A model generated the notes under the pieces. It did not search any database. It was not told the DNA's origin and saw only the letters and a list, made by a program, of their open reading frames with translations. The translations under genes were made by a program, and so were the position numbers. From Candidatus Magasanikiibacteriota bacterium (GTDB taxonomy: Bacteria > Patescibacteriota > Patescibacteriia > Magasanikbacterales > UBA10003): a stretch of DNA of 33,331 nt. Of this stretch, positions 2 through 26,722 are shown piece after piece; the stretch's first letter is position 1; each line of letters starts with the position of its first letter. The stretch is from positions 1-33,331 of the forward strand of contig JACROI010000002.1 of the NCBI GenBank assembly GCA_016214465.1, read 5' to 3'.

Positions 2-1378
2 CAAGAAGACAATGTTTCTACATGCCTTAACAGAGGAGGCATCTGGTGCTATGACAATAGCTCCAAAAATACCGGTTATTGTTCCACCGGTTCTTGCAAA
101 TTAACACCTCCAACTCCGGAACCTACACCTCAACCCCAACCAGTACAATCTCCGGACATGTCTAAACAGATTGAGCGAGAGAAAAAAGACATGTTGCGCG
201 AATTGCGTATGTTTGAAAGATACTTTAAAAAACTGAAAGATGGCACCGTGCTGTCAAAAATCGCAGCCTTAAGCGATAAAATACAAAAAGTTGATTCCAA
301 AATTACCGACGCGATGAGCGTGATGGAAGCGATACGAGAAGAAATACAAATTATGCGCGAGGCCTACCAAGACGCCACGGAAAACGACAATCAAGTGAAT
401 GAACAACAGCGCGATGAAAAATTCCAAAAACAGGCCTTGCGTGACATGAAGAACGGCGTTAAAAATTTTGAGAAATATCTTAAAACTTTGGATATACGGA
501 TAGCCGGTTTGGAAAAGAAAGGATTTGTCGTTGACGCGGCTATAAAAGACACTTTGGCTAAAGCCAAAGAACTGGTTGCAAATGCCAAAACAGCCGAGAC
601 CTACGATGAAATCAAGGATATTATGGAACAATTGCCGCAACTGGTGGAAAATTTAAACGACTTCATGCCTCGGCTTGAACAGCTGGCTCGTATTCCACAG
701 ATTATCAAAATGATCGCGGCTCGCGTTACGGCCACCGAACGGCTGGTCGTTCAAACGGAAAAAACAGCCGCCCGGCTCAAATTTGACGCCACGGAAGAAA
801 TTCAAAATATGCGCACTTTGCTGGATGAAGTGAAAGCGGCAGTGGAGCAAGTTAGATCCGCTTCGTTTGAAAATGATTTATTCACATTTATTCAGGACAA
901 TATCTTGGAAAAATTAGCCGATATCCAACAAATTTCCGACAACTTGAAAAATGTCGTGAGCGTGAAAAAATATGCCAGTCAAACGGCCGCCAATGTCAAA
1001 AAGTATGAACAACGAATTGCCAAACTGGAAAAAAAGGGCGAAGATGTGAGCGAGCCGCAATTCTTGTTGGATGAAGCCAAAACTCACCTTGATGACTTGC
1101 GCGCCTTGGCTAATCAAAAACTGACAGAGGATTCGGCTCTGGAAATTATTGAACATCTGCGCGCTCTGACCGAGACCATGAATCAGCTGGCTGAATCTCT
1201 AAAAATAGTCACGCCGGACGCTTTGGAACAGCAATTGAAAAAATCATTGCAAGGCGTGGGTGCCACTTTCAAACAATTTGAAGTGAATGAAATTGAAAAA
1301 TTGATGGTTAAAGCGTTTCATGTGGCCAATTACTTCCGTTTGTCGCCACAGCGTTCGCTCGCAATTTTGATGGAATAA
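2..1378 (+). CDS. C-terminal part of a larger protein: Cys-containing segment, Pro-rich linker, long coiled-coil region (5' end outside window)
   Basis: The frame of the listed ORF (ATG 158) is open to the window edge: QEDNVSTCLNRGGIWCYDNSSKNTGYCSTGSCKLTPPTPEPTPQPQPVQSPDMSKQ..., followed by Lys/Glu-rich heptad-like sequence. Confidence 0.75.
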   Translation, partial: QEDNVSTCLNRGGIWCYDNSSKNTGYCSTGSCKLTPPTPEPTPQPQPVQSPDMSKQIEREKKDMLRELRMFERYFKKLKDGTVLSKIAALSDKIQKVDSKITDAMSVMEAIREEIQIMREAYQDATENDNQVNEQQRDEKFQKQALRDMKNGVKNFEKYLKTLDIRIAGLEKKGFVVDAAIKDTLAKAKELVANAKTAETYDEIKDIMEQLPQLVENLNDFMPRLEQLARIPQIIKMIAARVTATERLVVQTEKTAARLKFDATEEIQNMRTLLDEVKAAVEQVRSASFENDLFTFIQDNILEKLADIQQISDNLKNVVSVKKYASQTAANVKKYEQRIAKLEKKGEDVSEPQFLLDEAKTHLDDLRALANQKLTEDSALEIIEHLRALTETMNQLAESLKIVTPDALEQQLKKSLQGVGATFKQFEVNEIEKLMVKAFHVANYFRLSPQRSLAILME

Positions 1379-4648: not shown

Positions 4649-4848
4649 ACTTACAAATATGTGATTAAATATAAGGAACGGTTATGAATAATAAAAAAGG
4701 GGGCAAAAGAATGGTTCTCAATTAAAAGAATTGAAAGAATAATTTGACGACACTTGTTAATAAATAAGATTAGCTGAAAAGGCAAAAAATAAAGACAAAA
4801 AAGGCTTTAAAATTGTTTCAAATGAAACTGCCTGGCTAAAAAACACCT

Positions 4849-5020: not shown

Positions 5021-5050
5021 AAATTTGTATAGACTATACTATACAAATTT
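5021..5050. repeat. 30-bp palindrome copy 1 (12-6-12)
   Basis: AAATTTGTATAG-ACTATA-CTATACAAATTT, perfect 12-bp arms. Confidence 0.9.
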
Positions 5051-5062
5051 TTGTTTGCTTAA

Positions 5063-5092
5063 AAATTTGTCTACACTAGTCTATACAAATTT
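5063..5092. repeat. 30-bp palindrome copy 2
   Basis: AAATTTGTCTACACTAGTCTATACAAATTT. Confidence 0.88.
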
Positions 5093-5152
5093 ACCTGTGG
5101 ATAACTGCCAAAACAATCTTTTTATAACTAAAATCAAGAATCTAATCCTTCC

Positions 5153-5223
5153 GGAGTTTTGTCTATAACCTTTTTTGCTGCGAACTGTCGCCGCGACTGC
5201 AAAAAAGTTATAGACAAAACTCC
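5153..5223. repeat. Long inverted repeat / hairpin
   Basis: GGAGTTTTGTCTATAACCTTTTTTGC ... GCAAAAAAGTTATAGACAAAACTCC, ~25-bp arms with one bulge, ~20-nt loop. Confidence 0.88.
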
Positions 5224-5413
5224 ACAAACCAATCAATTCCGTAATTTAAACAAATTTTTCCAAAAGTTTCACAAGAAACTTATCTTGACCATAAAATATT
5301 ACACTCTTCTATCATTTTTACCTAAACCACAATAATATCTAGCGTCGGAAAATAAATAATCCGGCAAAATCGCCTTAATCCACTTATTTTTGTATCCATT
5401 CAACTATTTGTGG

Positions 5414-5440: not shown

Positions 5441-7246
5441 ATGCTTAAACTTAAAAAACAATCCGGCTTTACTTTAATTGAAATGGTGGTTAGCATTGGC
5501 ATTATGGTGTTAGTCATGTTGGGTATTTTTGGCGCGTTTCAATACACCTATAAAATCATTTATCGAGGTAAAATTCAGATCTTATCCACACAACTGGCCA
5601 ATGAACAACTGGAAATCATTCGTAATCTGCCTTATGAAAGCGTAGGCATTTTAAATGGCATACCCTCTGGCGTTCTAACTTATGAACAAACCAAAGTGCG
5701 CAATAGCGTTACATTTAAGCTCACGACCACTGTCCGCAACATTGACGACCCATTTGATGGCACAATCGGTGGCACGCCTAATGATTTGTCCCCAGCCGAC
5801 TCCAAACAAGCTGAGGTTACCGTATCTTGCACTTCATGCTCGATGCAGACGACTTCGGTCATTTTAAACACCCGCGTAGCGCCTGACGGCTTGGAAAGCA
5901 GTACTGGCGGCGGAGCTTTGTTCATTTCTGTGTTTGATTCTGCAGGAAGCGCAGTGGCGCAAGCCAATGTACATATTGAAAAAGATGAAAATAAAGATGG
6001 TGTCGCGGAATTAACTATTGACGACGTAACCGGCAACAATGGCGAACTGCGCTTGATTGACATGCCGCCGGCTGTTGAAGCGTATAAAATCATTGCCACA
6101 AAAAGCGGCTACTCAACTGATAACACTATTACAGCCAGCCAAAGCAATCCCAATCCTTTAAAACCGCCCGCCACCGTGGCCGCGTCCACTGTCACCAATA
6201 TCAGTTTTGCCATTGACAAAATCAGCAGTTTTAATTTAAAAACACAAAATGTTTTTTGTTCAGCCATCGGCAATGTGGCTGTTGAAGCGCATGGTTCAAA
6301 AATAATCGGCGCCAATCCTGATGTCTATAAATACAGTCAAACCGTCAGCACCAATGGCGACGGCCAAAAAACTTTATCCAACATGGAGTGGGACACTTAT
6401 TCTTTTGCTTTGCCCAGCGCATCCTCATACGACATTTCCGGCAGTATCCCAACTTTGCCTGTGGCTTTAGCGCCAAATTCACAGCAGGATTTAACTTTTA
6501 TTTTAAAAACTCACACTACCAATTCATTGCTCGCGACAATAAAAGACAGCGCCACCAAATTGCCGCTGTCCAACGCAAAAATTACTATTACGAAAAATTC
6601 TTTTATTGATGACCTGACCACCGGCCATGGCTATCTGCGCCAAACTGATTGGTCCGGCAGTTCCGGCCAGGCGCAATTTATTGATGAAACAAAATTCTGG
6701 GAGCAGGATGGCAATGTGGAGATAGATAATCCGGCAGGGGATTTGTTTTTATCAAAATTCGCCGGCAAATATTATTTAACCGGCTTGTTGGAATCGTCAA
6801 CTTTTGATACCGGCACTGCCAGCAATTTTACCAATCTAATTTGGGAACCATTGGCCCAGCCGCCGGCTTGCGGCGCCGCGCCGGTCAAATTTCAAATCGC
6901 CACCGCGGCTGTGGCCTCACCGGAAACATGGAATTACAAAGGTCCGGACGGCACGAGTGCGACATATTACACTGCGAGCGATGCCAATATCTCGTCGGTT
7001 CATAATGGCGACCGTTATTTACGCTACAAACTATTTTTAAACACAGACAGCAACAACTGTACGCCGCAAGTGTCAGATGTGGCTGTGAGTTTTACTTCCG
7101 GATGCACTCCGCCCGGACAGGCCTTTTTTTCAGGCCTGGACAGCGGCACCTACACCGCGACTGTGGAATTGAGCGGTTACCAAACAATAAATACGGAAAT
7201 CGTGGTGAGCGGACGGACACAGGCAGAGATTTTGATGAGTCCTTAA
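5441..7246 (+). CDS. Type IV prepilin-like / secretion pseudopilin-like protein with large carboxypeptidase-regulatory-like extracellular region
   Basis: KKQSGFTLIEMVVSIGIMVLVMLGIF is a class III signal/N-methylation motif; C-terminal SGLDSGTYTATVELSGYQT repeat-like beta domains. Confidence 0.85.
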   Translation: MLKLKKQSGFTLIEMVVSIGIMVLVMLGIFGAFQYTYKIIYRGKIQILSTQLANEQLEIIRNLPYESVGILNGIPSGVLTYEQTKVRNSVTFKLTTTVRNIDDPFDGTIGGTPNDLSPADSKQAEVTVSCTSCSMQTTSVILNTRVAPDGLESSTGGGALFISVFDSAGSAVAQANVHIEKDENKDGVAELTIDDVTGNNGELRLIDMPPAVEAYKIIATKSGYSTDNTITASQSNPNPLKPPATVAASTVTNISFAIDKISSFNLKTQNVFCSAIGNVAVEAHGSKIIGANPDVYKYSQTVSTNGDGQKTLSNMEWDTYSFALPSASSYDISGSIPTLPVALAPNSQQDLTFILKTHTTNSLLATIKDSATKLPLSNAKITITKNSFIDDLTTGHGYLRQTDWSGSSGQAQFIDETKFWEQDGNVEIDNPAGDLFLSKFAGKYYLTGLLESSTFDTGTASNFTNLIWEPLAQPPACGAAPVKFQIATAAVASPETWNYKGPDGTSATYYTASDANISSVHNGDRYLRYKLFLNTDSNNCTPQVSDVAVSFTSGCTPPGQAFFSGLDSGTYTATVELSGYQTINTEIVVSGRTQAEILMSP

Positions 7247-11965: not shown

Positions 11966-13192
11966 TTAAAAAGAACCGGACTTTATTTTTTCTTTTTGAG
12001 AGACAGGCGCGAGAGAACTAAAATGGTGAACGGATGAAGCCCAAAATTCTTTGGATTGAATCTGATTCGCTGGAGCTACATCTTTTTCCATTAAAAATAA
12101 ATATTCGTGGTGTTTTCCGTCGCTATTTATCCATTCGTTTGTCCACCGCATATTTGCCATCACATTTTTTTTGTAATTAATCTCCACGGCTTTTATCAAT
12201 TTCCCGGATTCATTGATTATTTCATTAAGCTCTTGTTGGGTGGCTCGACCACCGGAACTATAAGACAGTAGAATATAGCGAGCATTGGTTGTTTGGATCA
12301 ATTTTCTTAATGCTTCCATGGCAATAAATGAACCATCATCATTTTTCCTAAATTCTTCAAATACCGAAGCGGCTACGCCGTCTCTGCTATCTACACGCCG
12401 ATTGGCTTTACCAAAAATCTCCGGCTTATCGTGGTTTATTATTGTTGTCCAAATATGATAATAAGAAGCGTATCGCACTCTACTCGGTGGCATTTTTTCG
12501 TTGTTTGACCCGTAAGGCGGGTCAAAATACGCTAAATCAAAATCATTATTCAGCACAGTATCAAAAATATCATTGTGAATTACTTTATGCTCGCCGCTCG
12601 TTTCAAATCGTTTCGGCAATTTCAGAAATAAATCATGATATGACCTTGGCGACCATTTTGATAAGTATGCCGCATAATGTCCGAGCGTGCTGTCAACAGA
12701 ATCCAGCGCGTAAATAAGACTGGCGAGGATTACGCATTTATCCGTCCAATCAAGATTGAGTTTTTCAATTTCATCTCGTATCGCATCTAATTTACGAGTA
12801 TTTTTTGCTTGAAAAGGCCTTTTGATCTCAGCTATTTCAGCTCCATAGTGCTCGGTATACCAGCCGTGGCACCCATTTAAAGAGTTAAGGTGATCAATTA
12901 TTTTTTGATAAAATGAATCTGATTTTTTAGAAAGCAAAAAACAATGCCCAAAAATTTCCGACCAAACTGAAATATCGCTTGAAGTCGTATCATATCCCAA
13001 TTGAGCGAATGTCTGTGAAACGCGTGTAGTGCCGCTAAATCCGTCAAGCACATTTTTTATACCATCAAGCTCACTCAAAATTTGAACGATATAAGGCAGA
13101 ATTTTTAATTTAGATCCCGCGTACTTTATGCCCTGAGTTTTGGGAACAGTAAATGTTTTATTTCCAAAAATATCAAATTGCCGGTTTCTCAT
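11966..13192 (-). CDS. DNA adenine methyltransferase (D12-like, type II R-M)
   Basis: KYAGSKLKILPYIVQIL, LDGFSGTTRVSQTF (SAM-binding), DLAYFDPPYGS (DPPY motif). Confidence 0.88.
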   Translation of the reverse strand: MRNRQFDIFGNKTFTVPKTQGIKYAGSKLKILPYIVQILSELDGIKNVLDGFSGTTRVSQTFAQLGYDTTSSDISVWSEIFGHCFLLSKKSDSFYQKIIDHLNSLNGCHGWYTEHYGAEIAEIKRPFQAKNTRKLDAIRDEIEKLNLDWTDKCVILASLIYALDSVDSTLGHYAAYLSKWSPRSYHDLFLKLPKRFETSGEHKVIHNDIFDTVLNNDFDLAYFDPPYGSNNEKMPPSRVRYASYYHIWTTIINHDKPEIFGKANRRVDSRDGVAASVFEEFRKNDDGSFIAMEALRKLIQTTNARYILLSYSSGGRATQQELNEIINESGKLIKAVEINYKKNVMANMRWTNEWINSDGKHHEYLFLMEKDVAPANQIQSKEFWASSVHHFSSLAPVSQKEKIKSGSF

Positions 13193-16837: not shown

Positions 16838-18229
16838 ATGACTCCTCAACAAATTTGGCAAGCAGTCCTTGCTGAATTAGAGCTCTCATTAAGCAGGGCA
16901 AGTTTTATCACTTGGTTTAAAAGCACCTTTATCGGCTCTTATGAAAAGGGGCATGTGGTTGTTTGCGTACCAAGTTCATTTAATAAAATCTGGCTGGAAA
17001 AAAATCACCATCATAATTTAATTAAACTGATTGAAAAAATCACCGGCGATCCAATCAACTCAATGGTATATCAAATTGAAACAACTCGTCCATTTCCAAT
17101 AACACCTACCACAGCTGCACCTACTGCAACCACCGCGAATCCGGCTCCGGCAGTTGAAGAAATCACGCAAATTTTTCAAAAAACCGTCTCGGAAACAGTT
17201 AACACTTTTGGCTTAAATCCTCGCTACAATTTTGCTAATTTTATTGTTGGAAAAGGATGTGAACTGGCCCACGCCGCTTGCCAAGCTGTCACATCGCAAT
17301 TGGGCAAGGCCTACAACCCGTTATTTATCTATGGCGGATCGGGACTGGGCAAAACACATCTTTTGCAGGCTGTTGGCAATTTAATTTTACAACAAGACAA
17401 ACAAAAAAAAGTTGTCTACGCCACTTGTGAAAAATTCACCAATGATTTTATTCACGCTGTGCGCTCCGGACAAATTAAAAATTTCTACGACATTTATCGT
17501 AAGGCGGATTTGTTGCTTATTGACGACATTCAATTTATTGCCGGCAAGGCGGAAACACAAGAGGCATTTTTCAACACTTTTAATGACCTGCACCAACAAG
17601 ATAAGCAAATAATGATCACTTCTGATCGCCCGCCAAAAGCCATTTCGCTGTTGGAAAATCGCTTGCTTTCCCGTTTTGAAATGGGCATGATTGCTGATGT
17701 GGCTCCACCGGATTTTGAAACCAGAATGGCGATTTTGCAAACAAAATGTCAAGAAAAAAACCTGCCTTTGGAAAAAGAAGTGCTTAATTTTATCGCTAAT
17801 TCTATACAAAATAACGTGCGAGAGTTGGAAGGCGCGCTAAACAAACTCAAAGCGTATCATGAATTAAAAAAAACAGTGCCGGATTTGGCGTTGGTAAAAA
17901 CACTGGTGTCTCATTTGGAAAATTCCGCTTCCGGCCGAGTGTTGACACCAAAATACATTATTCAATCAGTGGCTGAATTTTTTGACATCAGAATCCAAGA
18001 TGTTTTGGGCGAGAGCAGGGAAAAAAGATTGGCTTACCCGCGTCAAATTATTATGTTTTTAATGCGGCGCGAAACAAAATCTTCTTTTCCCGCGATTGGC
18101 ATGGAGTTGGGCGGCCGTGATCACACCACCGCCATGCACGCCTGCAAAAAAATCATTAAAGATATTGAAAAAGACCCTAAAGTTAGAGAAGAAATAGCGC
18201 AAATCCGTCAAAAATTATTCGCTGTGTAA
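16838..18229 (+). CDS. dnaA: Chromosomal replication initiator protein DnaA
   Basis: NPRYNFANFIVGKGCELAHAAC, GGSGLGKTHLLQAVGN, LLIDDIQFIAGK, GGRDHTTAMHACKKI. Confidence 0.97.
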   Translation: MTPQQIWQAVLAELELSLSRASFITWFKSTFIGSYEKGHVVVCVPSSFNKIWLEKNHHHNLIKLIEKITGDPINSMVYQIETTRPFPITPTTAAPTATTANPAPAVEEITQIFQKTVSETVNTFGLNPRYNFANFIVGKGCELAHAACQAVTSQLGKAYNPLFIYGGSGLGKTHLLQAVGNLILQQDKQKKVVYATCEKFTNDFIHAVRSGQIKNFYDIYRKADLLLIDDIQFIAGKAETQEAFFNTFNDLHQQDKQIMITSDRPPKAISLLENRLLSRFEMGMIADVAPPDFETRMAILQTKCQEKNLPLEKEVLNFIANSIQNNVRELEGALNKLKAYHELKKTVPDLALVKTLVSHLENSASGRVLTPKYIIQSVAEFFDIRIQDVLGESREKRLAYPRQIIMFLMRRETKSSFPAIGMELGGRDHTTAMHACKKIIKDIEKDPKVREEIAQIRQKLFAV

Positions 18230-18449: not shown

Positions 18450-19604
18450 ATGAAATTTTCTTGCACACAGGAAAACTTTTTACAAGGTCTGCAGGTGGTG
18501 AGTCACGCCGCCGGTAAAAACATTTCTTTGCCGATTTTGAATAATGTTTTAATAAAAATTGAAAACAAGGAATTGAAATTGGTAACCACTAATTTGGAAA
18601 TGGCCATTAGTTGCTGTTTGAGAGCCAAGGTGGATGAAGATGGTGAGTTTACAGTGCCTTGCCGACTTCTAACCGACTATTTGTCAGTAAGCTCTCCAGG
18701 CCGAGTTGATGTGGAACAAAAAGACAGTGAGTTGTTGGTGCAGAGCGCGAGTGATAAAACCATGATCAAGGGTAATGTGGCAGTGGATTTTCCTTTGGTG
18801 CCACAATTGGAAAGAAAAAAGATGTATGGCTTAAAAGTGGTTGATTTTAAGGAAATGGCGCAAAAAGTGATTTTTGCAGCGTCTAAAAATGAGGCTAGAC
18901 CTGAGTTGGGTGGTGTTTTGCTTAATTTTAATCCTGATTTTAAGCTGGGATTTGTGGTGTCAGCTGCCACAGACAGTTATCGTTTGGCTGAAAAAGAGGT
19001 GAAATTATTGGAAAATTTGACTAATAAGAGTTATAGTGCCGAAACATCAAAGGTGATTGTGCCTGTTCGGGCTTTGCAAGAGATTTTGCGTATTGTTTCC
19101 ACTTATCATGAAGATTTGGAAGAAGAGCATCATGTGGAAATAGTGGTGTCTGATAGTCAGATTATGTTTTCCTATGGTTTGGTTGAGCTTGTTTCCCGTT
19201 TAATTGAAGGACAGTATCCTGATTATCGTCAAATTATTCCGGCCAATTCTAAAACCAATATATCGTTTAATGTGGCTGAGTGGATAAAGAGAATCAAAGC
19301 CGCCAGCCTGTTCTCTAATGTGGGCATAAATGGCATTGTGTTGACCTTTAAGGCCGGTAATGAGCAAAAGACGACATTCATATCAACCAACGGTCAATTA
19401 GGTAATTACACCAGCGAAGAATTGTGTCAAATTGAAGGTGAGGATAATCATATTTTATTGAATTACCGCTATTTGTTGGATGGATTGATGAATTTAAGCT
19501 CGGAAGAGGCGGTCTTGAAAGTTATTTCGCCAAATTCACCTTGTGTTTTGTCTTCCAAGTCCGGTAGTGGGTATTTATATATAATAATGCCGATTAAAGA
19601 ATAG
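18450..19604 (+). CDS. dnaN: DNA polymerase III subunit beta (sliding clamp)
   Basis: MKFSCTQENFLQGLQVVSHAAGKNISLPILNNVLI..., 384 aa, adjacent to dnaA. Confidence 0.95.
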   Translation: MKFSCTQENFLQGLQVVSHAAGKNISLPILNNVLIKIENKELKLVTTNLEMAISCCLRAKVDEDGEFTVPCRLLTDYLSVSSPGRVDVEQKDSELLVQSASDKTMIKGNVAVDFPLVPQLERKKMYGLKVVDFKEMAQKVIFAASKNEARPELGGVLLNFNPDFKLGFVVSAATDSYRLAEKEVKLLENLTNKSYSAETSKVIVPVRALQEILRIVSTYHEDLEEEHHVEIVVSDSQIMFSYGLVELVSRLIEGQYPDYRQIIPANSKTNISFNVAEWIKRIKAASLFSNVGINGIVLTFKAGNEQKTTFISTNGQLGNYTSEELCQIEGEDNHILLNYRYLLDGLMNLSSEEAVLKVISPNSPCVLSSKSGSGYLYIIMPIKE

Positions 19605-19641: not shown

Positions 19642-19659
19642 ATTTCCCCTAAAACGCTA

Positions 19660-19935
19660 AAAGGGCGACTTTTAAGCCCAAAAACATAATGTTGTTTAAT
19701 GGCGAGTCGCCCTTGTTAATCCAAGAAGCGAACTCGTCTACCCCGAGATAATCGGAGTAAACCGTCTACTAACCTGCAGACGGTTAAATGGCGAATATAC
19801 ATTCTTCTGGGATTTGTTTTGTCTCCTTTTACCCTTTGGTGGTTTATTAACTGGTTTAAGTTAAAAACCATATTTGTCCCAGTTGGGACACCACAGAGTA
19901 ATGGAGTAAAGCTGAAAAGAACAACTCTTCTGATA
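19660..19935 (-). ncRNA. Candidate orphan structured RNA (~270 nt)
   Basis: Minus-strand unit between consensus promoter (19939..19967) and terminator-like stem (AAGGGCGACT...AGTCGCCCTTTT). Internal stems TGTCCC/GGGACA, GGTTT/AAACC inside GTGG/CCAC, AACCGTCT/AGACGGTT, ACTCCGA/TCGGGGT. Confidence 0.5.
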
Positions 19936-19938
19936 TAT

Positions 19939-19967
19939 ATTATACCATGAAAAACAGCACTTGTCAA
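19939..19967 (-). promoter_or_regulatory. Consensus sigma70 promoter
   Basis: Minus strand TTGACA-N17-TATAAT with TG-extended -10 (CATGGTATAAT). Confidence 0.85.
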
Positions 19968-20041
19968 CATTTGTGTGTATAAGTTTTATTTTTTCTCTAA
20001 ATCTAGCTGTAATTTTGATTTTTTATAAATTTATCCACAGA

Positions 20042-20071
20042 AAATTTGTCTACACCATACTATACAAATCT
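20042..20071. repeat. 30-bp palindrome copy 3
   Basis: AAATTTGTCTACACCATACTATACAAATCT; preceded by TTATCCACAG. Confidence 0.85.
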
Positions 20072-20144
20072 GGGGATAAAGTATGGGTTATGAGCAAGTT
20101 ATCCACAGGATGTGTCTACTTAAAGTGGAAAACTTCTACAGAGT

Positions 20145-20174
20145 GAATTTGTATAGACTATATTAGACAAATTT
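20145..20174. repeat. 30-bp palindrome copy 4
   Basis: GAATTTGTATAGACTATATTAGACAAATTT; preceded by AGTTATCCACAGG at ~20097. Confidence 0.85.
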
Positions 20175-20225: not shown

Positions 20226-22451
20226 TTAAAATCTCCGTCGTCCGCCTCCACGGCGGTCGTTGTTTCCACTAGGACGCGGTCGGCGCTCCATTGGCGGGCG
20301 GTCAACATAGCCCTCGGGTTTGGGCAAGAGTTCTTTCATTGTTAAATTAGTTCTGCCCATGTCGTCAATTTCTTTAACTTTCACTTTCACCTTGTCGCCA
20401 ACTTGCACAACATCTTCAACGCTATTAGTTCTGCCCCAAGCCATTTCGGAAATATGCACCAAACCCTCTTTGCCCGGCAACACTTCCACAAATGCGCCAA
20501 AATCCATCAAGCGGGTAACCGTTCCATCATAAATTTCGCCAGGCTCAACTTCTTTTACAATGTCGCGCACTATTTTTTCCGCTTTTTCCAACGCCTCTTT
20601 ATTCACGGCAGTAATGGACACGGTGCCGTCTTGTTCAATGTCAATTTCCACACCGGTATCTTCAATGATTTTATTGATAATTTTACCCCCTGGTCCGATG
20701 ACCTCGCGAATTTTATCAACATCAATTTTGAAAGCGACAATGCGCGGAGCATATTGGGATAATTCAGTCCGCGGAGCTGGAATCGCTTTGTTCATCGCTT
20801 CCAGTACTTGCAATCGCGCTTCACGAGCGCGTGATAATGTTTCCTTAACAATTTTTTCTACCAGCCCTTCTGTTTTAGTATCCATTTGAATAGCGGTAAT
20901 GCCATTCACAGTGCCGGCGACTTTAAAATCCATTCCGCCTTTACCATCTTCCAAATCCTGCAAGTCGGTTAAAATTTGATAGTCATCTCCACCTTGATTA
21001 AAATTAGAAGCTAAACCAATAGCCACTCCGGCCACAGGTGATTTGATTGGCACGCCGGCATCCATCAAAGCCAAAGACGATCCGCAGGTTGAGGCCATTG
21101 AAGATGAACCATTGGAACCAAGAACTTCAGACACCACGCGAATGGTGTAAGGGAAATTCTCTTTGCTTGGCAAAACCGGCACCAAGGCCTTTTCCGCGAG
21201 AGCCCCATGGCCAATATCGCGTCGTCCAGGGCCACGCATCGGGCCAACTTCGCCAACGCTATACGGAGGGAAATTATAGTGATGCATGTAGCGTTTTTTG
21301 CTCGCGCCTTCAATACCCTCCAAAGTTTGTACAGCGGCAGGTGAGCCAAGTGTAATTGTACTCAAAACCTGTGTTTCTCCGCGTGAAAATAAGGCGGAAC
21401 CATGGGTGCGCGGCAGTACTGCGGCTTCAGCCATAAGCTGACGAATATCTTTAAGAGAGCGGCCATCCACACGTTTTTTTTCTTTAATGATTTTTTCCGT
21501 GATAAACTCTTCCACTATAAGTTTGTATCTTGAAAAAATCAGTTTGCGGCGATCTTTGCCAATGTTTTTTTCTTGCAAGTGTTCTTCCAATTTTTTGGAT
21601 AAAGAATCAAAAGCTCCAAATCGTTCGGCTTTAATTGTAAGATTTTTATCAAAAAAATGTTTGGCAACATTAGTTTTGATAAATTCGCGCGCAATATCCA
21701 ATAATTCATTTTCACTGGCGGCGGAAGTGTCTTCATCAGCGTCCAAATCCTGTTTTAACACGATTTTTTCTTTGCCAACCGCATTTTGCACTTTATTTAT
21801 CAAGTCAATTACTTCTTTCAAGTGTTTTTGACCAAAAATAATGCCTTCCAACACAGTTTCTTCCGGCACTTCATTGGCGCCAGCTTCCAACATTATTACT
21901 TTTTCAGGAGTACCGGCCACCACCAAATCCATAGCGCTTTTTAAACGCGCTTCATAAGAGGGATTGATTACCCATTCGTTATTTATCTGGCCAATACGAA
22001 TGCCGCCAATCGGGCCTTTCCAAGGAATGTCGGAAATCGCTAAAGCGCAAGACGCGGCCACTAGTCCGAGCACATCAGGGTCGTTTTCTCCGTCAAAAGA
22101 CAATACAGCCACCACTGCCTGCACTTCATTTCTGACAGTATCGTCAAAAAGCGGGCGGATGGCGCGGTCAATCATGCGGCCGGAAAGAACGGATTCGTCG
22201 CTCGGCCGGCCTTCGCGTTTGATAAAGCGAGAGCCCTTGATTAAGCCGGCGGCATAGAGTTTTTCTTCAAATTCCACCATCAATGGGAAAAAATCCACGC
22301 CTTCGCGCGGCTTTTTGCTCATGACAGTTGACGCTAAAATAACAGTGTCCCCGTACTGAACAGTGCAGGAACCATTGGTTTGGTTGGTAAATTTACCAAC
22401 CTCTACGGTGAGGGTTTTACCGCCCCACTCGCAAGAGAATTTTTGGACCAT
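20226..22451 (-). CDS. pnp: Polyribonucleotide nucleotidyltransferase
   Basis: Two RNase PH domains, KH (EVIGPGGKIINKIIEDTGVEIDIEQDG), S1 (GEIYDGTVTRLMDFGAFVEVLPGKEGLVHISEMA). Confidence 0.97.
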   Translation of the reverse strand: MVQKFSCEWGGKTLTVEVGKFTNQTNGSCTVQYGDTVILASTVMSKKPREGVDFFPLMVEFEEKLYAAGLIKGSRFIKREGRPSDESVLSGRMIDRAIRPLFDDTVRNEVQAVVAVLSFDGENDPDVLGLVAASCALAISDIPWKGPIGGIRIGQINNEWVINPSYEARLKSAMDLVVAGTPEKVIMLEAGANEVPEETVLEGIIFGQKHLKEVIDLINKVQNAVGKEKIVLKQDLDADEDTSAASENELLDIAREFIKTNVAKHFFDKNLTIKAERFGAFDSLSKKLEEHLQEKNIGKDRRKLIFSRYKLIVEEFITEKIIKEKKRVDGRSLKDIRQLMAEAAVLPRTHGSALFSRGETQVLSTITLGSPAAVQTLEGIEGASKKRYMHHYNFPPYSVGEVGPMRGPGRRDIGHGALAEKALVPVLPSKENFPYTIRVVSEVLGSNGSSSMASTCGSSLALMDAGVPIKSPVAGVAIGLASNFNQGGDDYQILTDLQDLEDGKGGMDFKVAGTVNGITAIQMDTKTEGLVEKIVKETLSRAREARLQVLEAMNKAIPAPRTELSQYAPRIVAFKIDVDKIREVIGPGGKIINKIIEDTGVEIDIEQDGTVSITAVNKEALEKAEKIVRDIVKEVEPGEIYDGTVTRLMDFGAFVEVLPGKEGLVHISEMAWGRTNSVEDVVQVGDKVKVKVKEIDDMGRTNLTMKELLPKPEGYVDRPPMERRPRPSGNNDRRGGGRRRF

Positions 22452-26449: not shown

Positions 26450-26472
26450 TGTTTTAGTTCTTTATAAAATTT

Positions 26473-26570
26473 ATTATCAAGAAGAGACGAGGGATTTGGC
26501 CCGCTGACTCTCTACCAACCTAACCATAACGGTCAAGGTGGTAATTCCAACCCACAATGGGAAAGATGTG
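26473..26570 (+). promoter_or_regulatory. SAM-I (S-box) riboswitch aptamer
   Basis: TTATCAAGAAGAGACGAGGGATTTGGCCCGCTGACTCTCTACCAACC...GGTCAAGGTGGTAATTCC...GGGAAAGATG follows S-box consensus (GAGGGA..GGCCC..UGA..CAACC..AAGGUG.UAA.UCC..GAAAGAU); usual G-C pair in GCAACC/GGUGC appears as C-G (CCAACC/GGTGG). Confidence 0.88.
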
Positions 26571-26596
26571 TCCTTATTTTTTAAGGGAATTTTGGT

Positions 26597-26624: not shown

Positions 26625-26722
26625 GTTTTAATTTTAAATTACAATAGAAAAATCTTACTCACAACGGTGTGGGTATGGATAGGGTAAGTCAGATAATTGC
26701 AACCAACCATAAGGAGAAAATC

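Follow-up and report, generated by a model that had tools for sequence, protein, structure and literature searches.

The window analyzed here, a stretch of 33,331 nt that is contig C7 of the 826-kb, 63-contig assembly of a Candidatus Magasanikiibacteriota bacterium, carries dnaA, dnaN, and pnp, the last two of which are convergent (Table 1). In the gap between dnaN and pnp, where no start of a recognized protein gene was found, lie two 24-bp palindromes together with DnaA boxes, a promoter, and a predicted structured RNA. A preliminary description of this DNA had placed the site ~1.6 kb beyond dnaA/dnaN, which needs correction: dnaN ends at 19604, 0.43 kb before the site, and dnaA at 18229, 1.8 kb before it.

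Table 1. Positions of genes, sites, and predicted elements in the window
Feature	Position	Strand	Remark
parS-like GTTTCAAATGAAAC	4815..4828	none	adjoins palindromes 1 and 2
Palindrome copy 1, parS-side cluster	5024..5047	none	pattern search
Palindrome copy 2, parS-side cluster	5066..5089	none	pattern search
DnaA box, inverted	5096..5104	−	adjoins copy 2
parS-like GTTTCACAAGAAAC	5266..5279	none	adjoins palindromes 1 and 2
dnaA	16838..18229	+	
dnaN	18450..19604	+	converges on the predicted RNA gene
3′ hairpin ending CCCTTTT	19655..19713	−	portion aligning with the G002 RNA, weak significance
Predicted structured non-coding RNA, ~280 nt	19655..19934	−	fold z −7.4, promoter, position
Sigma-70 promoter TTGACA-17-TATAAT	19939..19967	−	12/12 match, extended TG; 77 bp from copy 3
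DnaA box TTATCCACA	20031..20039	+	5 bp before copy 3
Palindrome copy 3 (putative operator)	20045..20068	none	TTTGTCTACACCATACTATACAAA
DnaA-box-like TGGGGATAA	20071..20079	−	one mismatch; 2 bp after copy 3
DnaA box TTATCCACA	20099..20107	+	between copies 3 and 4, ~40 bp before copy 4
Palindrome copy 4 (putative operator)	20148..20171	none	TTTGTATAGACTATATTAGACAAA
pnp	20226..22451	−	end just beyond copy 4

Palindromes and DnaA boxes beside dnaN and parS

The pattern TTTGTMTA-N8..14-TABACAAA yielded seven sites in the whole assembly versus none for the reversed control, a count that excludes a chance origin of the palindromes. These copies of the 24-bp palindrome fall into three clusters: (i) two at 20.0–20.2 kb of the window, in the dnaN-pnp gap; (ii) two at 5.0 kb, flanked by the two parS-like sites at 4815 and 5266; and (iii) three on contig C43, in the promoter of a gene for an HTH_17 protein of ~100 aa. 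The same three-cluster layout is also seen in relatives. The four copies reported earlier in the window are real, and their positions agree with ours to within a few bases.

Among all sampled loci, TTATCCACA was found within ~50 bp of 27 of the 74 palindromes versus 0.9 expected from its background density in the same loci, i.e., an enrichment of ~30-fold. The palindromes that bear boxes belong mostly to the dnaN-side cluster, where most genomes have only 0–3 bp between box and palindrome and several have a pair of boxes at a spacing of 32–33 bp, while palindromes at the HTH promoter are free of DnaA boxes in most genomes. The association of palindromes and DnaA boxes put forward in the preliminary description is therefore real, the boxes said to precede copies 3 and 4 are present (at 20031 and 20099), and palindrome positions at the dnaN-side locus are not independent of DnaA boxes. 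The proposed pairing at both loci also stands, with the refinement that boxes occur mainly on the dnaN side and that the 5-kb cluster is a parS region.

In the 19 genomes that have both on one contig, the dnaN-side cluster lies 2–29 kb from dnaA, and the element keeps its proximity to dnaA throughout the order, with synteny around dnaN preserved at this locus. The idea that the two clusters flank the origin region was borne out in part: dnaA lies between them in G002, G011, G025, and G041, but both clusters are on one side of it in G037 and G023. In G011, dnaA-dnaN coincides with the GC-skew minimum (41.6 kb), whereas the dnaN-side cluster is found 10.7 kb away, at 52.3 kb; an identity of this cluster with oriC is therefore rejected for G011. 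The skew of the complete genome CP129476 is too weak for placing the origin. Two further features of the window are a gene for a D12-class adenine DNA methyltransferase (Dam-type family; 11966–13192, minus strand), situated between the palindrome clusters and ~4 kb from dnaA, and a SAM riboswitch (RF00162, 61.8 bits with Rfam; 26471–26572, plus strand) ahead of an ORF at 26669.

On the other side, a canonical or near-canonical parS (some sites carrying one or two mismatches) lies <0.75 kb from a palindrome in 13 relatives (G007, G011, G022, G025, G027, G028, G034, G037, G038, G039, G041, G042, and G044). The distant CP129476 has only two palindrome matches at ≤2 mismatches, one on the HTH promoter and the other 74 bp from parS. 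A search of 19 genomes detected ParB in every one. The palindrome itself was rejected as a parS, since it is not a TGTTTCACGTGAAACA-type site and canonical parS coexists beside it. No strong promoter accompanies the parS-side cluster in most genomes.

Several other elements were observed near these clusters. Small LAGLIDADG endonuclease genes adjoin the parS-side palindrome in several genomes of family f8 (L066 8310–8693; L107 10033–10398), and genes beside parS-side palindromes (L113 10286–10990; L107 12972–13604) gave weak, below-cut-off matches to NCBIfam CPR Pam-pilus models. Long inverted repeats with the common core TTTTTTGCAGTCGCGGCGA...GCAGCAAAAAA and outer arms that are self-complementary and different at each copy occur at 5149–5226 of the window and at 5820–5890 and 6445–6510 of L005, i.e., three copies in the ~49 kb sampled, every one adjoining palindrome clusters.

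A small HTH_17 protein as the probable reader of the palindromes

The first palindrome on C43 touches the start codon of a gene for a 98-aa HTH protein, which passes the cut-offs of both Pfam HTH_17 (PF12728; 32.7 bits, cut-off 27) and TIGR01764 (30.6 bits, cut-off 28.8). This gene is single-copy in 50 of 57 relatives from the order, and strong matches to the protein are confined to the class in a phylum sample of 287 genomes, with the named ones coming from Magasanikbacteria, Uhrbacteria, Buchananbacteria, and Falkowbacteria, all members of the class ABY1; one further match sits on a small contig binned as an archaeon, which looks misbinned. A loose form of the pattern placed a palindrome upstream of the HTH gene in 79 of 93 ABY1 loci. 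At loci with a good promoter, the palindrome usually starts 26–32 bp after the first −35 base and so covers the −10 element or start, while in family f6 and some Uhrbacteria-type loci it starts at +7, +8, or +17, inside the promoter. Both placements are repressor positions, which suggests negative control. Neither the HTH gene nor the palindrome occurs in G014 and G016, two complete genomes. Together, these data indicate that the small HTH protein probably reads the palindromes. The nearly complete genome G017 has palindromes (C6:119899 and C7:143731–143828) but no HTH gene was found in it, which may reflect an assembly gap, a diverged gene, or another reader.

AlphaFold predicted a confident winged HTH over residues ~5–55, followed by a tail that is conserved but poorly modeled and includes the segment GIGQ(F/Y)VDKWKIKN-LYSPNPK. 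No helix of ≥4 residues, and thus no coiled coil, was seen past residue 55, where the confidence of the model is low. The nearest solved folds are those of Xis, BldC, RacA, and GlnR, all with weak E-values because the domain is small; for example, the Foldseek match to the RacA DNA-binding domain (5i44) has a probability of 1.00 with a weak E-value of 0.05. A phmmer search against PDB sequences returned no match. Divergent from the HTH gene, an operon encoding an ECF sigma factor, a DUF5667 protein, and a ~1250-aa protein was observed in all 12 loci examined (L005 6666–15666; L114–L124), and it may share the HTH operators.

A promoter and a predicted structured RNA next to the dnaN-side cluster

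Alignment of the sequence beside the dnaN-side cluster brought to light an almost invariant promoter, TTGACA-17-TATA(A/C)T, which adjoins the cluster in 14 of 14 relatives as well as in the window (11–12 of 12 positions matching). Its distance from the proximal palindrome takes values of 3–4, 63–67, 75–77, or 85 bp, and over this variable palindrome-to-(−35) spacing of 3–85 bp, helical phasing is suggestive only. Past the promoter, a structured stretch of ~280–440 nt follows in relatives and closes with a terminator-like hairpin. Specifically, two-sided compensatory changes support 12 of 21 pairs of the RNA core in 13 genomes, none of 500 shuffles reached the observed covariation score, and pairing held in 90.7% of cells versus at most 55% in slid controls. 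RNAalifold failed on full-length RNAs of all families because the RNA bodies are too diverged, while the core from family f8 could be folded in this way.

The covariance model built from this core found one copy in each of 16 relatives, every one a member of family f8. G022, G031, and G055 among them were outside the model-building set and have the order palindrome, DnaA box, palindrome, and promoter directly upstream of the RNA match, which is independent confirmation. The model gave no match in G016, which is without HTH gene and palindromes, and the RNA was not found by model search in CP129476. Rfam returned no match to the RNA at the gathering score. RNase P RNA was rejected as its identity, since RF00010 matches elsewhere in 27 of 29 genomes (on contig C14 in that of the window).

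In the window, the 280 nt past the promoter fold far better than shuffled sequences (z = −7.4). The f8-built covariance model R1 did not match this RNA, its body gave no alignment with RNAs of other families, and R2, a model of the 3′ hairpin built on sequence alone, had no match in the window. As the f8 model misses the body and only the 3′ hairpin aligns, and that weakly, we regard the window RNA as a probable positional counterpart of the RNA in relatives rather than a proven homolog.

An operator role in a dksA-lspA-comM operon, which was favored at first from neighboring genes, was dropped: the palindrome-side promoter appears to make an RNA that terminates, many genomes have a second promoter-like sequence after that RNA, and no such operon follows in the window.

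Interpretation and relation to known systems

We favor, with a probability of about two in three, the reading that the dnaN-side site is a regulatory region controlled by DnaA and the HTH protein, and that it belongs to a non-coding RNA gene. This gene would be read leftward on the minus strand, from the promoter at 19967–19939 through ~19,934–19,655, and the two palindromes beside it would serve as operators for the winged-HTH (HTH_17/excisionase-fold) protein of ~100 aa encoded on C43. With DnaA boxes directly adjoining these operators, DnaA could bind next to the HTH protein, upstream of a promoter predicted to be very strong. Because the operator lies upstream of the promoter at the RNA gene and over the core promoter at the HTH gene, the protein could activate the former and repress the latter; it would thus limit its own level by covering its −10 element or start, and act at the RNA gene probably as a co-activator or gate, in concert with DnaA or in opposition to it. 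From the presence of the operator near parS, a further role of the protein in marking or organizing the centromere is suggested. Here, we infer binding, transcription, and the direction of control from sites that recur with defined geometry, from the promoter, from RNA covariation in relatives, and from the linkage to the HTH gene. Several observations count against this reading, namely the palindromes without an HTH gene in G017, the varying palindrome-to-(−35) spacing, the failure of the f8 model on the window RNA, and the parS-side palindromes without a promoter, the last of which means that one simple operator role cannot explain all sites.

The preliminary description had proposed a replication-linked, datA/DARS-like element, of which the box association and the proximity to dnaA hold. 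In such a reading, the DnaA boxes and the HTH protein, as an architectural partner like IHF, would titrate DnaA or alter its nucleotide state (known elements of this type promote DnaA-ATP hydrolysis or ADP release), and the RNA would be incidental. Two to three DnaA boxes are indeed fused to the sites of one dedicated protein, and this arrangement is conserved in the vicinity of the origin without being part of it (in G011, the skew minimum is 10.7 kb away); likewise, at E. coli datA and DARS2, DnaA boxes outside oriC are combined with binding sites of a partner protein and keep a conserved spacing from the origin (PMC4585315). Nevertheless, the partner would be neither IHF nor Fis, whose sites datA and DARS need for activity, all f8 genomes examined pair the element with a near-perfect promoter and a covarying RNA, and the same operators serve the HTH promoter without DnaA boxes in most genomes; we therefore consider this role unlikely and secondary to control of the RNA gene. 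Slightly less probable still is an organizer resembling RacA, in which the HTH protein at palindromes near parS and dnaA would anchor or fold the origin region and control of transcription would be secondary. The palindromes <0.75 kb from parS in 13 relatives, the match 74 bp from parS in CP129476, and the weak structural match to the DNA-binding domain of RacA agree with it. Like the palindromes, the ram sites of Bacillus subtilis lie near origin and centromere, and RacA has a MerR-like HTH fold, which the HTH protein may share (PMC6593407). A coiled coil and polar anchoring are further features of RacA. Against it, the palindromes form only three clusters (seven sites) instead of many sites, the HTH model has no coiled coil, and the geometry at two of the three clusters is promoter-linked, being that of a repressor or lying upstream of a promoter.

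That the palindromes are plain operators of a small regulon and the nearby DnaA boxes ancestral or chance remnants would agree with the regulator-type geometry on the HTH promoter, but the ~30-fold enrichment of boxes and their abutment to palindromes at the dnaN-side locus make this quite improbable. Hardly credible, in our judgment, is the earlier suggestion that a 15-kb unit, mobile or invertible, is delimited by sites of recombination or resolution: palindromes are paired at both ends of the 5.0–20.2 kb interval, the HTH protein has an excisionase-type fold, and gene neighbors of the clusters vary between families, but the interval carries dnaA, dnaN, tig, and rnpA, no integrase or other recombinase was found among the annotated neighbors of the HTH gene or the palindromes, gene content between the clusters differs among genomes, and the HTH gene carries such palindromes on its own promoter, which in G011 is ~385 kb distant. 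A dif/Xer site was rejected, since a single site near the terminus would be expected and there are seven sites, with two clusters near dnaA.

Among known arrangements, that of Caulobacter crescentus CcnA appears most similar, where the promoter of an origin-located non-coding RNA gene bears a CtrA box (PMC8959179); datA/DARS2 and RacA/ram seem to share parts of the arrangement described here. The likeness, an origin-side non-coding RNA gene whose promoter has a box for a cell-cycle regulator, is one of sequence architecture only, a CcnA-like RNA being defined also by its transcription and its action on cell-cycle regulator mRNAs, and we claim no relationship in sequence; CtrA belongs to the response regulators, whereas the putative regulator here is a lineage-specific HTH_17 protein, DnaA boxes abut its operators, and the gene in G011 lies outside the skew-defined origin. 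This protein shares domain family (Pfam HTH_17 and TIGR01764) and fold with small DNA-binding proteins such as BldC and Xis but differs from them in its conserved tail segment, its 24-bp inverted-repeat operators, and, in the searches made, its restriction of strong matches to ABY1 Patescibacteria. As for ParB-parS, the parS-side cluster adjoins parS, but its palindrome is another sequence.

A broader reading, which we put forward as tentative, is that Magasanikbacteria-type Patescibacteria have a dedicated initiation and segregation circuit unlike known ones, in which DnaA and a lineage-specific HTH protein would jointly gate a strongly expressed, structured RNA beside the origin that feeds back on replication, and the HTH protein at parS would report duplication or position of the centromere to the initiator. 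The part of the literature searched held no description of such a system in Patescibacteria, and very little is known about the timing of replication and segregation in these mostly uncultured bacteria. For one large group of them, the proposed circuit is testable, with a defined operator, a likely reader, and operator-fused DnaA boxes, and it also offers a physical link to parS as well as an RNA family that Rfam does not list. Caulobacter would then be joined by a second lineage in which a non-coding RNA beside the origin is apparently wired to replication control.
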